Positions 11,866 to 17,732 of a DNA stretch of 33,134 nt are shown here, in pieces (the first letter of the stretch is position 1; each line of letters starts with the position of its first letter). Source of the DNA: Desulfobacterales bacterium. GTDB lineage: Bacteria > Desulfobacterota > Desulfobacteria > Desulfobacterales > UBA2156. Where the stretch lies: assembly GCA_027025555.1 (NCBI GenBank), contig JALVQN010000131.1:1-33134 (forward strand), given 5' to 3'. Both the position numbers and the translations under genes were made by a program. A model generated the notes under the pieces. The model saw only the letters and a list, made by a program, of their open reading frames with translations. It had not been told where the DNA came from and searched no databases.

Positions 11866-12133
11866 GGGTTCTCCTTGCCACCATCCGGGACCGTGTATTC
11901 CCGGGGCATCCGTGCGTTCCCGGGTCCCTTCATAGGACAAAACGCCCCATGCGAAAAGCTTTTTTGCCGGAAAAGGGCGATGAAAAATCTGTTGAAGGCA
12001 TCGGGGGGATGATGATATGGGCTTTTCGAGTCGGGTTGCGACCACGCTTCAGAAAAAGCACGCCCGGACCGGATGGAGCGGCCCCGGGCCACAGGAATTC
12101 TGAAAAGACGGGAGAGGGAGGCCCTTGAAGATC
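11866..12133. other. Divergent intergenic region between the DAGK fragment and selA
   Basis: No convincing gene. An imperfect repeat-rich hairpin (GGGACC 11887-11892 with GGTCCC 11923-11928, flanking two copies of TTCCCGGG) lies in what would be the leader of the DAGK-fragment/pyrF transcript. I looked for a tRNA-Sec next to selA and saw none. No strong sigma-70 promoter stands out in either direction. Confidence 0.35.
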
Positions 12134-13558
12134 ATGGAGCAGGGAAATGGAAAACAGGCGCTGTTGCGGGCGCTTCCGGGTGTGGACCGGGTGATCGCTT
12201 CCGCCAGGCAGGATGCCTTTTTCGATCCGGTTCCCCACACCCTTTTGACCCAGGGGGTGCGGGAGGTCCTCTCCTTGTTACGCCAAGCGATCCTGGCCGG
12301 AAAAGAGGGCCTCGAGGCAAAAGACCTGGCCATGGAGACGATATTGGCGCGCGTCCGGGAGCGCGTGGGGCGACGCCTCTCACCCCGGCTCAAGCGGGTG
12401 GTCAACGGAACCGGTGTGGTGGTCCATACCAACCTCGGGCGTTCCCTTCTTCCCGAGAATGCGGTGGACAATCTTGTTGCGCTGGGGTCCGGCTATTCCA
12501 ACCTGGAGTTTGATCTTTCCAAAGGGGTCCGGGGCTCCCGGTATGCGATCGTGGAGGCGCTCTTGTGCGAGATCTCCGGCGGTGAGGCGGCCATGGCGGT
12601 GAACAACAATGCCGGCGCCGTCCTCCTCTGCCTGGAGACACTGGCCAGGGGGAAGAAAGTCATCGTTTCCCGGGGAGAGCTGGTGGAAATCGGCGGGTCC
12701 TTCAGGATCCCGGATGTGATGACCAAAAGCGGCGCCTTCCTGAAGGAGGTGGGCACGACCAACCGGACCCATCTTTTTGACTACGAGAATGCCATCGAGG
12801 AGCAGACGGCGCTTCTGCTCAAGGTGCACCGGAGCAATTACAGCGTGGTGGGATTTACGGCCAGCGTCTCCTTGAAGGCCCTCGTGGAACTGGGCCGAAC
12901 CTATCACCTTCCCGTCATGGAAGACCTGGGCAGCGGGACCTTCATCGATTTTTCCGGGTACGGACTCACCAAAGAACCCACGGTGCAGGAGTCCATCGCC
13001 TCCGGTGCCGACGTGGTCACCTTCAGCGGGGATAAGTTGCTCGGCGGTCCCCAAGCCGGGATCATCATCGGCAAGAGGGAGATTTTGGAAAAAATCAAAA
13101 AAAACCCCTTGACCCGGGCCCTGAGAATCGACAAGCTGACACTTGCGGCCCTGGAAAGCACCCTGGCCCTGTACCGGGACGAGAACAGGGCCGTTGCGGC
13201 GATCCCCACCCTGAAGATGATCCTGGCGCCTTTTGCCGAGATCGAAAAGCGTGCCCGGCGCCTGCAGCGGATGTTGAAATCCCTGGGCTCCAGGCGTCTT
13301 CGGATTGTTTTGATGGATCTTCCTTCCCGGGTGGGGGGCGGCGCCTTGCCCCTGCAGGATCTGCCCTCCAAGTGTCTCGGTATCCAGGTGGAGGGGATGT
13401 CGGCCAATGCCGTGGAACGGTTCATGCGGGAAGAGGCCGAGACGCCGGTCATCGGCCGGATCGAAGCGGATCGCTTTGTTCTGGATCCACGGACCATTCA
13501 AGAAAAGGAGATGCCTCTCATCAAAAGCGTTTTTTCCGAGTTGCTCCAAAGGGGCTGA
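12134..13558 (+). CDS. selA: L-seryl-tRNA(Sec) selenium transferase (selenocysteine synthase)
   Basis: PLP enzyme converting seryl-tRNA(Sec) to selenocysteinyl-tRNA(Sec) using selenophosphate. About 474 residues, normal for SelA. Hallmarks are VNGTGVVVHTNLGRSLL (start of the catalytic domain), VNNNAGAVLL, KEVGTTNRTHLFDYE, KVHRSNYSVVGF, and the PLP lysine in FSGDKLLGGPQAG (Lys301). The track begins at a TTG at 12125; the ATG at 12134 is close to typical SelA N-termini. The GGGAGAGGGAGG ribosome site is oddly placed for either (3 or 12 bases away). It heads a long plus-strand run; the next gene starts two bases after its stop. selB, selD and tRNA-Sec are not in the window. Confidence 0.96.
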   Translation: MEQGNGKQALLRALPGVDRVIASARQDAFFDPVPHTLLTQGVREVLSLLRQAILAGKEGLEAKDLAMETILARVRERVGRRLSPRLKRVVNGTGVVVHTNLGRSLLPENAVDNLVALGSGYSNLEFDLSKGVRGSRYAIVEALLCEISGGEAAMAVNNNAGAVLLCLETLARGKKVIVSRGELVEIGGSFRIPDVMTKSGAFLKEVGTTNRTHLFDYENAIEEQTALLLKVHRSNYSVVGFTASVSLKALVELGRTYHLPVMEDLGSGTFIDFSGYGLTKEPTVQESIASGADVVTFSGDKLLGGPQAGIIIGKREILEKIKKNPLTRALRIDKLTLAALESTLALYRDENRAVAAIPTLKMILAPFAEIEKRARRLQRMLKSLGSRRLRIVLMDLPSRVGGGALPLQDLPSKCLGIQVEGMSANAVERFMREEAETPVIGRIEADRFVLDPRTIQEKEMPLIKSVFSELLQRG

Positions 13559-13560
13559 AG

Positions 13561-14916
13561 ATGTCTGACGGCAGGACGATCCCCTTCAAAGACAAGACCG
13601 CCTCCGGCGCCGTTCTCTTTTCCAGAAGCGATTTTCAGCACTTAAAAAGCCGGACCGCGCCGCAGGATGGCGCCTCCTTCGCTTTTTTGCAAAAGGCCTT
13701 TCCGCAGGGGGCGTCCGAAGAACCCTTCATCGCGTATGCCCTCGGATGCTTAAAGGATTTTTCACGATTCGGCGTCCTCATGATCCGGCTGGATCCTTTG
13801 AATGCGGATTCGGCGGACACCGGCCAAGAAGGGGAAAGCCGGGGGAAGGCACTCGTTCAAGTCCTTGGGGCCTTGTGCAGCGGGAACGGGTCCGGATGGG
13901 GCCCGTATGCGCCGGACCTCTTGTGTTGTTTTTTCCCCAACAAGAGCGATCAGGAGTGCCTGGAGACGGGGAGGAGGCTTCAGGAGCGCCTGAGCCGGCA
14001 CCGGGGGGGCACCGTGAGCGTGGGCTGCGCCCGGTATCCCATGGTCCATTTTTCCAGGATCCAGACCTTTGAGAATGCCCGGAAAACCCTTGATCATGCC
14101 GCCTTTTTCGGACCCGGAAGCCGGGTTGCCTTCGATGCCGTCACTCTCAACATCAGCGGGGATAAACGGTACCAGGAAGGGGATATTCCCGGAGCCATCC
14201 GGGAGTACCAGGCGGCCTTGAAAATCGACCCCACCAATGTCAATGTGCTCAACAGCCTGGGGGTTTGCCACGCGGTGACCGGAAACTGGAAGGAGGCGGT
14301 GGCGCTTTTTGAGACCGCCCTTTGGATCGATCCCGGTGAAGTCATGGCCCGGTACAATCTGGCCCTTGCCGATGAGGCCGACGGGGATACGGACCGCGCC
14401 CTTGGAAGGTACCATGAAATCCTTGGGATTCAGGAGGACCACTTCGAGACCCTGTTTCAGATCGGCCGCCTCTGTTTCGAAAAAGGCCTGCCGGAAAAGG
14501 GCAGGGCGTACCTTGAAAGGGCGGTCTCCGCCAGACCGGGTTCGGGTCCTGCCCACCGATATCTGGGGGAGTGCCTCCTGGCGGCGGGCAACATCGATGA
14601 GGCCCTCAAGGCCTTCAAACAGGCCGTCAAGATCAACCCCAACGATGCGGCGGCCCTTTCCGCACTGGGATACCTTTTCAGCGAGATTGGGGAAAATCCC
14701 GAGGTGGCCCTGGCCTTTTGCAGACAAAGCGTCACCATCGCCCCAAAAGAAGGGCGTTTCTGGTATCGACTGGCCCTGCTTTACCATCGTCAAGGACAGA
14801 CGCGAAATGCCCAAAGGGCCCTTTCGGAAGCCGTCCGGCTGGGGCATCCGGAAACCGACTTGATGGATAAGATCAAACACGACCAAAAGGACCTTCCCGA
14901 TGAAGGCCGACCTTGA
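13561..14916 (+). CDS. TPR protein with degenerate GGDEF-like N-terminal domain
   Basis: A 451-residue cytoplasmic protein. Residues about 35-190 look like a worn diguanylate-cyclase fold: FGVLMIRLDPLN, a long middle segment, and TVSVGCARYP near residue 150, which resembles the S[IV]G.A.Y motif after GGDEF. No GGDEF or EGEF signature is present, so it should not make cyclic di-GMP. From about 198 to the end there are roughly seven TPR units (GDIPGAIREYQAALKIDPTN; GNIDEALKAFKQAVKINPND), a protein-interaction scaffold. The track start (13372) is inside selA; the ATG at 13561 has AAAGGGG upstream and lies two bases after the selA stop. It overlaps gmhA by 17 bases. Function unknown. Confidence 0.78.
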   Translation: MSDGRTIPFKDKTASGAVLFSRSDFQHLKSRTAPQDGASFAFLQKAFPQGASEEPFIAYALGCLKDFSRFGVLMIRLDPLNADSADTGQEGESRGKALVQVLGALCSGNGSGWGPYAPDLLCCFFPNKSDQECLETGRRLQERLSRHRGGTVSVGCARYPMVHFSRIQTFENARKTLDHAAFFGPGSRVAFDAVTLNISGDKRYQEGDIPGAIREYQAALKIDPTNVNVLNSLGVCHAVTGNWKEAVALFETALWIDPGEVMARYNLALADEADGDTDRALGRYHEILGIQEDHFETLFQIGRLCFEKGLPEKGRAYLERAVSARPGSGPAHRYLGECLLAAGNIDEALKAFKQAVKINPNDAAALSALGYLFSEIGENPEVALAFCRQSVTIAPKEGRFWYRLALLYHRQGQTRNAQRALSEAVRLGHPETDLMDKIKHDQKDLPDEGRP

Positions 14917-15487
14917 AAATCATGTCCTGCAGGCGCTTGAAGACAGCCTCCATGTGAAACGCCGGGCCGTCCGGGAGAATCTTTCCGATCTCGTCCGGTG
15001 CGCCGACCTCATGGCCGCCTGTCTTTCCAGCGGCCACAAGATCCTGATTTTCGGAAACGGCGGCAGCGCGGCAGACGCCCAGCATATCGCGGCGGAATTC
15101 GTGAATCGCTTCCGGACCGAACGCCCCCCCTTGGCTGCCGTGGCCCTGACCACCGATACCTCCATCTTAACGTCTGTGGGAAACGATTTCACCTTCCATG
15201 AGATCTTTTCCAAGCAGATCCAGGCCCTGGGCAAGAAAGACGACATGGCTTGGGGGATCAGCACCAGCGGCAACTCCCCCAACGTGCTCAAGGCCCTGGA
15301 GACGGCCCGAAACATGGATCTGATTCCCATTGCCATGAGCGGGGAAGGCGGAAAACTGCCCCGGTACGCAGACCTGTGCCTGCGTGTGCCCGCCGCCAGC
15401 ACCGCCAGGGTCCAGGAGACCCATATCACCATGGCCCATATCCTGTGCGACCTGGTGGATCGACTCCTTTTCCCCGAACGGTTTTAG
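14900..15487 (+). CDS. gmhA: Sedoheptulose-7-phosphate isomerase (GmhA)
   Basis: Isomerises D-sedoheptulose 7-phosphate to D-glycero-D-manno-heptose 7-phosphate, the first step toward LPS core heptose. The 195-residue SIS-domain protein has KILIFGNGGSAADAQHIAAEF, where His62 and Glu66 match the E. coli catalytic His61/Glu65, plus ISTSGNSPNVLKAL (phosphate binding) and RVQETHITMAH, where Gln172 and His180 match the E. coli positions. Length is normal. The start overlaps the TPR gene by 17 bases with AAAAGGA upstream. Its neighbours (a deoxyhypusine-synthase-like protein and a sugar-isomerase-like barrel) are not the usual heptose genes, so a related sugar phosphate is also possible. Confidence 0.92.
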   Translation: MKADLENHVLQALEDSLHVKRRAVRENLSDLVRCADLMAACLSSGHKILIFGNGGSAADAQHIAAEFVNRFRTERPPLAAVALTTDTSILTSVGNDFTFHEIFSKQIQALGKKDDMAWGISTSGNSPNVLKALETARNMDLIPIAMSGEGGKLPRYADLCLRVPAASTARVQETHITMAHILCDLVDRLLFPERF

Positions 15488-15502: not shown

Positions 15503-16444
15503 ATGGCCCGCGCTTTCAACCCTCTCGATTTCAAACGGATCAAAACCTATCCCCTCAAAAAAAGGCCCAGCAAGGTGGAAGCGGCCCAGTTTTGCCGCAC
15601 GCATCACATGGGGAGTTCCTTTGCCGATTTCTTGTCGAGCCTGCCTGACGTATTGGCCGGAAAACAACTCAAAGAAGTGATCGCCGCCACTGCCGCCGCC
15701 GCCGAAAGGGGGAAAACGGTGCTGTTCGGCATGGGCGCCCATGTCATCAAGGTGGGCCTGAGCCCCCTGGTGATCGACCTCATGGAACGGGGCGTCCTCT
15801 CGGCGGTGGCCATGAACGGGGCCGGCATGATCCACGACGTGGAGGTGGCCCTGGCCGGGAAGACTTCCGAGGAGGTGGGCCCGTCCCTGGAGGACGGCAC
15901 CTTCGGCATGGCCGAAGAGACCGGCGCGTTCCTCAACCGTGCCCTGTCTTCAGAGAGCGGAGGACTGGGCGCCCGCGTGGGCAGGGCGATTTTGGCCGGG
16001 AACATGGCGCATCCGGAGCTTTCCATCCTGGCCGCAGGGGCCCGCCTGGGAATCCCCGTGACGGTCCATGTGGCCTTTGGGACCGATATCATTCATATGC
16101 ATCCGGGCTTTGACCCGCAACGCACGGGACAGGCCACCTTCGCCGATTTCGAGACCTTTGCCGCCGTGGTGGCCACCCTGGAGGAAGGGATCTACTTCAA
16201 TGTGGGCTCGGCGGTGATTCTGCCCGAAGTTTTTCTCAAGGCCCTGGCCGTGGTGCGCAATCTGGGCCATCCCGTGAAACATCTCACCACCGTGAACATG
16301 GACTTCATCCGCCACTACCGCCCCATGACCAACGTGGTCTCCCGTCCCACGGCCCGGGGCGGCAGGGGGTATGCGCTGGTGGGGCACCATGAAATCATGG
16401 TGCCCCTTTTGGCCGCAGGGCTCATCGAAGCCCTGCAGCCCTGA
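15503..16444 (+). CDS. Deoxyhypusine-synthase-like conserved protein lacking the catalytic lysine
   Basis: A 313-residue protein I cannot name. Its plan follows the deoxyhypusine/homospermidine synthase fold: an N-terminal helix region, a Rossmann-like stretch (MGAHVIKVGLSPLVIDLME, then AVAMNGAGMIHDVEVAL, comparable to the DHS TTAGG.EED segment), HPELSILAAGARLGIPVTVH with GTDIIHMHP (comparable to SI..WA...IPVF and GD), and FNVGSAVILPEVF (comparable to the GGG region). In the C-terminal segment where DHS has the reactive lysine (SWGK), this protein reads YALVGHHEIM (His295-His296). It is therefore probably not a hypusine enzyme, though NAD binding is plausible. An AAGGAAC site precedes the ATG. 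It lies 15 bases after gmhA. The fold assignment is my pattern match, not a search result. Confidence 0.6.
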   Translation: MARAFNPLDFKRIKTYPLKKRPSKVEAAQFCRTHHMGSSFADFLSSLPDVLAGKQLKEVIAATAAAAERGKTVLFGMGAHVIKVGLSPLVIDLMERGVLSAVAMNGAGMIHDVEVALAGKTSEEVGPSLEDGTFGMAEETGAFLNRALSSESGGLGARVGRAILAGNMAHPELSILAAGARLGIPVTVHVAFGTDIIHMHPGFDPQRTGQATFADFETFAAVVATLEEGIYFNVGSAVILPEVFLKALAVVRNLGHPVKHLTTVNMDFIRHYRPMTNVVSRPTARGGRGYALVGHHEIMVPLLAAGLIEALQP

Positions 16445-16461: not shown

Positions 16462-17388
16462 ATGGAAATCTACCTGATCACCGGAAGCATCCGGGACCTC
16501 ATCCGCCGGTACCGGTTACCGTTGACGGATCTTCCCGGTTTGGCACGCAGGCATGGATTCGAAGGCATCGAAATTTCCGATCGGCAGGTCGGCGGTGTCA
16601 ACGAGGCGGTGCTGGCCCGCCTGAAAGGCGAGTGCGTCCGCAGGAACCTGGGGATCATTTTGGATGTGGGCTGTGATTTAACCCTTCCTTCGGGGCGTCT
16701 CCTGAAAGACCAGATCGCCCATGCCGCTGCCATGACCCGGGCGGCAAAGACCCTGGGCGCCCGCGGGATTCGCATCTGGCTGGGGGGCCAGATGCTCAGC
16801 ATCCAACGGCTTGTGGGCGGCTCCAGGGGCCCGGCGTTGGGTGCGGAAGGATCCCGAACCCCCGGGAAAGGCTTCCGAGCCCGTGTGAAGCGGCTCTTGA
16901 CCGCCAGAGCCGTCACGGGCACGGCCCATGAAATCCGGGCGCATCTGCCGCAGCCGCGCTTCGGCGTCCAAGAAAAAAAACGCCGGGCCGCGGCGGCATT
17001 GAAACAGATTGTTGAGGATCCGGCGGCGGAAGGCCTTTTTTTCGCCGTGGAAAATCACTGGGGCATCAGCGCCAGGCCGGAAACGCTGATGGCCGTCATC
17101 GACGCGGTGGGGTCTGACCGGCTGGGCACCTGTCCGGATTTTGCCAATTTCCCGAAAGGGGTGAACCGGTACGAGGCGTTGAGACGATTGGCCTCCCGGG
17201 CCTTTGTGGCCCACGCCAAGTTCATGACCCGGGGGCCGGTCCGCCAGAGGGAGGTTGACTTTCGTCGATGCCTGGCGGTATTGAAGGAAAGCGCCTTTGA
17301 CGGGATTTTGGCCGTGGAACACGACGGCCCGGGAGACGGATTGGAACGGTGCCTGACCCTGCAGCGCATGATCCGCGAGTTCTGGTGA
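16462..17388 (+). CDS. Sugar-phosphate isomerase/epimerase-like TIM barrel with insertion
   Basis: A 308-residue protein of the xylose-isomerase-like TIM-barrel superfamily (AP endonuclease family 2). Seen: LARRHGFEGIEISDRQ (strand 2 with Glu), LGIILDVGCDLTL, ARGIRIWLGGQ, LFFAVENHWGIS (strand with metal-binding Glu), LGTCPDFANFP (Asp), AFVAHAKFMT (His) and GILAVEHDGPGD (Glu/His). These supply the usual divalent-metal ligands. Between GIRIWLGGQ and the ALKQIVEDP helix there is an insertion of about 60 residues, rich in Gly, Arg and Ser, longer than family norms. No strong ribosome site precedes the ATG. It is 17 bases after the deoxyhypusine-synthase-like gene. Substrate unknown; context suggests a sugar phosphate. 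Confidence 0.75.
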   Translation: MEIYLITGSIRDLIRRYRLPLTDLPGLARRHGFEGIEISDRQVGGVNEAVLARLKGECVRRNLGIILDVGCDLTLPSGRLLKDQIAHAAAMTRAAKTLGARGIRIWLGGQMLSIQRLVGGSRGPALGAEGSRTPGKGFRARVKRLLTARAVTGTAHEIRAHLPQPRFGVQEKKRRAAAALKQIVEDPAAEGLFFAVENHWGISARPETLMAVIDAVGSDRLGTCPDFANFPKGVNRYEALRRLASRAFVAHAKFMTRGPVRQREVDFRRCLAVLKESAFDGILAVEHDGPGDGLERCLTLQRMIREFW

Positions 17389-17504: not shown

Positions 17505-17732
17505 ATGCCGATTTATGAATATCAATGCAAGGCCTGCAACACGTGTTTTGAGTTCCTGGTCCTGGGGAACAAGGAACCTGACTGCTGTCCCTCATGCCGG
17601 AGCAAGAAGGTTTCCCGCCTCATGTCCGCCTGCGGTTTCGTGAGCAAAGGCAAGGGCGGCGAGACCGTCTCCAAGTCCGCGGGGTCCTCGTGCACCGGCT
17701 GTTCCGCCACCAGTTGTGCAGGCTGCGGATAG
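17505..17732 (+). CDS. FmdB-family zinc-ribbon protein
   Basis: A 75-residue putative regulatory protein of the FmdB/CxxC_CxxC_SSSS family. It opens MPIYEYQCKACNTCFE and has a second pair in DCCPSCRSKKVSRL, giving a four-cysteine zinc site, then a Ser/Cys-rich tail (SSCTGCSATSCAGCG). A strong AAGGAGC site lies four bases before the ATG. The family name comes from an operon for amidase/formamidase expression, and the true role of most members is unknown. It is preceded by a 116-base gap and followed after two bases by hemC, so co-translation with haem synthesis is likely. Confidence 0.88.
   Translation: MPIYEYQCKACNTCFEFLVLGNKEPDCCPSCRSKKVSRLMSACGFVSKGKGGETVSKSAGSSCTGCSATSCAGCG

Follow-up and report, generated by a model that had tools for sequence, protein, structure and literature searches.

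A protein with a deoxyhypusine synthase-like fold encoded beside gmhA as a candidate replacement for the ADP-heptose epimerase HldD

Gene neighborhood and family membership

The window studied here, a 33,134-nucleotide stretch of a contig from a Desulfobacterales bacterium, contains a gmhA-like gene, a gene for a 313-aa protein and a gene for a TIM barrel protein in consecutive order (Table 1). The open reading frame of the middle gene is intact and represents a real gene; its coordinates, and the gaps of 15 bases from gmhA and 17 bases to the barrel gene, agree with those given by an earlier sequence-only reading of the window. The encoded protein matches the NCBIfam model NF052581 (GSU2086 family protein) with 413.3 bits against a cut-off of 250, covering positions 1-300 of the 301-position profile. 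This model carries a family name only, without an assigned function, and the function assignment proposed for it in this work is new. When genome contigs of GTDB were scanned with a pattern, relatives were found at no fewer than 579 loci, and this conservation is strong and far above chance; among the matches listed, the named relatives belong to Desulfobacterales, Nitrospirota, Binatia and Methylomirabilota. A PDB sequence search with the single window protein as the query returned nothing useful.

Table 1. Features of the window and related loci of the survey
Feature	Position	Strand	Evidence or remark
selA (selenocysteine synthase), frequent upstream neighbor in Desulfobacterales, without proposed functional link	12125..13558	+	PF03841 515 bits; 39/101 loci
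gmhA-like phosphoheptose isomerase with a SIS domain; opens the conserved gene pair	14900..15487	+	SIS_2 95 bits; TIGR00441 191 bits
GSU2086-family protein of 313 aa with DHS-like fold; proposed to act as ADP-heptose 6-epimerase in place of HldD	15503..16444	+	NF052581, AlphaFold, Foldseek, HldD exclusion
H111-D-x-E114 codons	15833..15844	+	H111, D112 and E114 each 119/119
R281-P282 codons, near the position of the DHS catalytic lysine	16343..16348	+	119/119; alignment here uncertain by a few residues
G294-H-H-E-I298 codons	16382..16396	+	aligned with DHS Y-A/G-D-A, not with the catalytic lysine
Xylose isomerase-like TIM barrel, local neighbor outside the conserved unit	16462..17388	+	PF01261 65.8 bits
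PF01916 DHS-like protein with TWGK	L001:536-2478 (G000:C203)	-	adjoins arginase/agmatinase-family gene
GSU2086-type domain fused in-frame to HldE-type nucleotidyltransferase domain, 535 aa	L141:2944-4548 (G097:C13)	+	

The association with gmhA is conserved: at 85 of 101 loci a gmhA gene is adjacent to the family gene, on the same strand and upstream of it, with a median distance of -5 bases among 69 measured pairs, for which the gene starts are longest-ORF choices. The gmhA-like gene of the window scores slightly below the equivalog cut-off of TIGR00441 (209 bits), a cut-off that only 3 of 58 relatives exceed. Fusions with gmhA, hinted at by open frames of 490-880 aa, were rejected, as gmhA lies there in a different, overlapping frame. 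The barrel gene adjoins the family gene only in the window and in the genomes G002 (65% identity) and G004 (47%), and is absent beside it in G001, which is of the same genus as the window. A conserved trio of gmhA, this gene and the barrel, for which a survey of co-occurrence had been suggested, was therefore rejected: the gmhA link held at most of the loci, and the barrel link was confined to three genomes.

Other neighbors were recorded as well. The selA gene and a gene for a TPR protein lie directly upstream of gmhA (positions 12125-14916) and are kept in more than a third of the relatives' loci (TPR genes in 37 of 101), with no obvious functional link. Between the barrel gene and hemC, a short zinc ribbon-like ORF is found (positions 17505-17732, 75 aa, MPIYEYQCKACNTCFEFLVLG...), and similar short ORFs lie downstream of the family gene at 32 of the 101 loci.

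The founding locus of NF052581 is GSU2086 of Geobacter sulfurreducens, located between hldE and gmhA and annotated as a "hypothetical cytoplasmic protein in sugar biosynthesis operon" (PMC5585712). Linkage to hldE was also observed in the surveyed genomes. With DHSL standing for the GSU2086 family (NF052581), the operons have the orders DHSL-GmhA-HldE (L169, L170), GmhA-HldE-DHSL (L168) and GmhA-DHSL-HldE (L166), and the operons of HldD-containing genomes have the orders HldD-GmhA-HldE (L161, L162) and GmhA-HldE-HldD (L160). In two of these arrangements, the GSU2086 family stands in the operon position otherwise held by HldD.

Fold and conserved residues

HldD is a short-chain dehydrogenase/reductase (SDR) unrelated in sequence to the window protein; its model (TIGR02197) was absent from the NCBIfam matches of this protein, the fold of which is instead similar to that of deoxyhypusine synthase (DHS). 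Direct comparison with the Pfam DHS family (DS, PF01916) gave 18 bits (E=0.0018) for residues 53-122 only, below the gathering score of 27. An AlphaFold model built from 46 family members has a mean pLDDT of 90.5 and a pTM of 0.88, and a Foldseek search of the PDB with this model placed DHS structures at the top (E from 5e-8 to 2e-7, probability 1.00), including 7cmc (E 5.1e-8, TM 0.63-0.67) and human DHS in complex with NAD, 1dhs (E 2.0e-7; TM of 0.6-0.67 across the two). When about 80 family rows were compared profile to profile with four DHS sequences, the probabilities were 97% (global) and 95% (local); the match of a single-sequence profile to the DHS of the same genome was weak (44%), and the similarity became clear only with richer alignments. 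The DHS-like fold claimed by the sequence-only reading is confirmed at the level of the predicted structure, both checks suggested for it, structure prediction and profile-profile search, having been run. The second-best Foldseek group consists of LOR/SDH proteins and AgrE/ArgZ domains (3c2q, E 8.9e-8; 6lrh, 6juy). The LOR/SDH proteins and the C-terminal domain of AgrE/ArgZ resemble the window protein in fold only, whereas their substrates and domain architecture differ, and the score with the ArgZ-like Pfam family PF21570 is below the cut-off (13 bits against 27).

The window protein shares with DHS and DHS-type homospermidine synthases (PF01916) the best PDB fold match, profile similarity and the order of motifs, but its identity to DHS is about 12%, the W-G-K catalytic lysine region is lost, and the gene context is that of heptose rather than of polyamines or eIF5A. 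In DHS the lysine lies in a W-G/N-K motif, about 12 residues ahead of a Y-A/G-D-A motif, as is visible in the alignment; we take these to be K329 and A341-D342 in human numbering. The VGHHEI segment noticed earlier is present at residues 293-298, and it had been read as a replacement of the catalytic lysine by His-His. Half of that reading stood. In an alignment of 119 family sequences, no conserved lysine was found between residues 262 and 298, so a conserved lysine is missing at the DHS site. The His-His pair, however, aligns elsewhere: profile alignments place GHHEI at the Y-A/G-D-A motif (YGDAT, VWGDAT or YADAS), about 12 residues past the lysine, and its role as a stand-in for the lysine was rejected. 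The region corresponding to the DHS lysine reads VVSRPTARGG in the window protein, with a variable residue 280 followed by the invariant pair R281-P282.

Within GHHEI, H295 and H296 are each kept in 113 of 119 sequences and E297 in 118. H80 is likewise kept in 118 of 119 sequences, and further invariant polar residues are K83, H189, D195, H198, H200, E242, K246, D267, Y272, R273 and N277. Judged from the alignment, these residues would fit an active enzyme with a chemistry unlike that of DHS.

Distribution relative to HldD

The GSU2086 family and HldD are nearly mutually exclusive in two phyla. Among 58 genomes of the order of the window, HldD was found over cut-off in 7, and the family is present in just one of these 7. 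Across 247 genomes of its phylum, 147 encode the family and 54 encode HldD, and both co-occur in 11 against 32 expected (p=4.6e-11, a value that, like the other genome-level ones below, treats genomes as independent, so that relatedness inflates its significance). HldE is present in 227 of these 247 genomes and is uninformative as a discriminating control. When the 197 genomes with both HldE- and GmhB-type genes are considered, 116 have the family only, 40 have HldD only, 10 have both and 31 have neither (p=1.4e-13). The effect of relatedness is reduced in a test at the rank of taxonomic families (89 families), which gave p=2.1e-5. Swaps between the two proteins were observed inside single taxonomic families, for example in f72 (six against one), and also in f113 and f82. 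In a second phylum, centered on a Nitrospira genome, 102 of 148 genomes have the family and 25 have HldD, with one genome containing both against 17 expected (p=6e-14), and HldD was found in none of 20 further family-bearing genomes reached via named loci. The exclusion pattern thus recurs in two phyla and persists at family rank.

Two sets of genomes were counted as evidence against a replacement of HldD: the 31 of 197 with neither enzyme and the 10 with both. In two genomes with both (G097, G158), the copy examined is a divergent paralog. Some of the genomes with neither protein belong to taxonomic families whose other members have the GSU2086 protein, and these genomes may be incomplete. 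Other taxonomic families, among them f69, f89 and f109, are mostly without both enzymes, which suggests that a third solution may exist.

In the genome of the window, GmhA is encoded in the window itself, GmhB at C193 (over cut-off) and HldE domain II at C196, and no HldD over cut-off was found. The ORF with the HldE adenylyltransferase domain is 302 aa long (L174:7213-8118, reverse strand; G000:C196), and the domain makes up its C-terminal half; the first ~150 aa are without a family match and may be a start-codon artifact.

Proposed function and alternatives

Although the biosynthesis of LPS heptose is textbook knowledge, many of the surveyed genomes have gmhA, gmhB and hldE-type genes without hldD. 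With GmhA, GmhB and HldE domain II present and no HldD over cut-off in the genome of the window, the missing step is the epimerization of C6''. HldD epimerizes C6'' by first oxidizing and then re-reducing it with the help of a bound nicotinamide cofactor, and relatives of the DHS fold use NAD. The simplest model casts the GSU2086-family protein as an ADP-heptose 6-epimerase that depends on NAD and acts in place of HldD without being homologous to it. We assign this reading a probability of about 0.5; that the protein belongs to the ADP-heptose pathway at all is very probable. In the proposed scheme, GmhA would convert sedoheptulose-7-phosphate to D,D-heptose-7-phosphate, from which an HldE-type kinase, GmhB and an HldE-type adenylyltransferase would produce ADP-D-glycero-D-manno-heptose. 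The DHS-fold protein, probably NAD-bound, would then oxidize C6'' and re-reduce it from the opposite face, and the product, ADP-L-glycero-D-manno-heptose, would enter the LPS inner core. For the window protein itself, we infer NAD binding, the substrate and the epimerization of C6'' as its step.

Mutant data are consistent with a role in this pathway. In a Tn-Seq study of G. sulfurreducens on electrodes, the log2 ratios were -3.1 for hldE (GSU2085), -3.2 for GSU2086 and -3.7 for gmhA (GSU2087), and the authors argued that polar effects are small since the transposon cassette reads through (PMC5585712). Our literature search found neither a report linking DHS-like proteins to heptose or gmhA nor an LPS sugar analysis of G. 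sulfurreducens. The earlier suggestion of a re-purposed NAD-binding or sugar-modifying enzyme is well supported by the fold, the linkage to gmhA and hldE and the Tn-Seq data, with NAD binding itself being only probable. The accompanying idea of an undescribed carbohydrate-phosphate pathway that includes the barrel did not survive: the evidence points to the known ADP-heptose pathway at the HldD step, and the barrel is merely a local neighbor.

A tentative alternative, which we consider rather unlikely, is that the protein depends on NAD and acts in the heptose pathway but makes a product other than that of HldD: a different epimer, a keto- or deoxy-heptose, or the result of an epimerization of the heptose phosphate. 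Two types of core heptose would then be open to bacteria, which would use one or the other. The pathway linkage and the exclusion data are also compatible with this alternative, since a family making a different heptose would produce the same exclusion of HldD; the invariant residues, wholly unlike those of DHS, and the presence of paralogs in surface-sugar clusters with SDR and transketolase-like genes also speak for it. However, the family occurs in the exact operon slot of HldD, in both gene orders, and the swaps within single taxonomic families suggest an interchangeable function. Improbable in our view is a non-catalytic helper of GmhA and HldE; it might sense NAD as a regulator or serve as a scaffold, and flux through the heptose pathway would require it. 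A helper would agree with the adjacency to gmhA, often with overlapping genes, and with a mutant phenotype the same as that of gmhA and hldE, but it leaves the exclusion of HldD unexplained, and the many invariant His, Asp, Glu, Lys and Arg residues look catalytic.

Very unlikely is a bacterial polyamine enzyme of the deoxyhypusine/homospermidine synthase type placed beside gmhA by chance. The DHS-like fold and the remote profile similarity would favor it, whereas the catalytic region lacks a conserved lysine, and linkage and phenotype indicate heptose genes. Moreover, the same genome encodes a separate full-length PF01916 protein with TWGK (C203, 199 bits) beside an arginase/agmatinase-family gene, probably a bacterial polyamine pair of this genome, so that the polyamine role appears to be already filled. 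Replacement of the phosphatase GmhB instead of HldD, although it would act in the same pathway and gmhB lies outside the operon, was rejected because the association between the family and GmhB-type genes is positive (odds ratio 3.2), the genome of the window has a GmhB over cut-off, and the DHS-type fold is not that of a phosphatase.

If the epimerase reading is true, the family, present in most genomes of the two surveyed phyla, fills the hldD gap with an unrelated fold, an unassigned NCBI family gains a function, the defect of GSU2086 in the electrode growth of Geobacter is explained, and sugar-nucleotide chemistry becomes a new role for the DHS fold. The chances are about even for the wider proposal that such an epimerase serves much of the phylum of the window, the phylum of Nitrospira and others, with a paralogous branch devoted to a second heptose-like sugar. 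The divergent branch of the family (~34-39% identity to the window protein) adjoins genes for HldE-like nucleotidyltransferase-kinase proteins, joined at some of its loci by SIS, SDR and transketolase-like genes; the recurrence of SIS, HldE-like and GSU2086-like genes in a second diverged set supports their joint function, and the SDR in these clusters argues against a simple replacement of any SDR there. In the fusion protein at L141, which belongs to this branch, NF052581 matches residues 21-331 (362 bits) and rfaE_dom_II residues 382-485 (97 bits). The fusion is a further link between the family and nucleotide-heptose-type chemistry, and it hints at more than one sugar served.

Three clusters (L152, L153 and L156; G049:C55, G022:C68 and G264:C34) combine a divergent paralog with an HldE-like protein and transketolase-like genes, to which some of the clusters add SIS and SDR genes, and are probably involved with a second heptose-like surface sugar. 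The HldE-like protein in these clusters has a reversed domain order, with the nucleotidyltransferase preceding the kinase.
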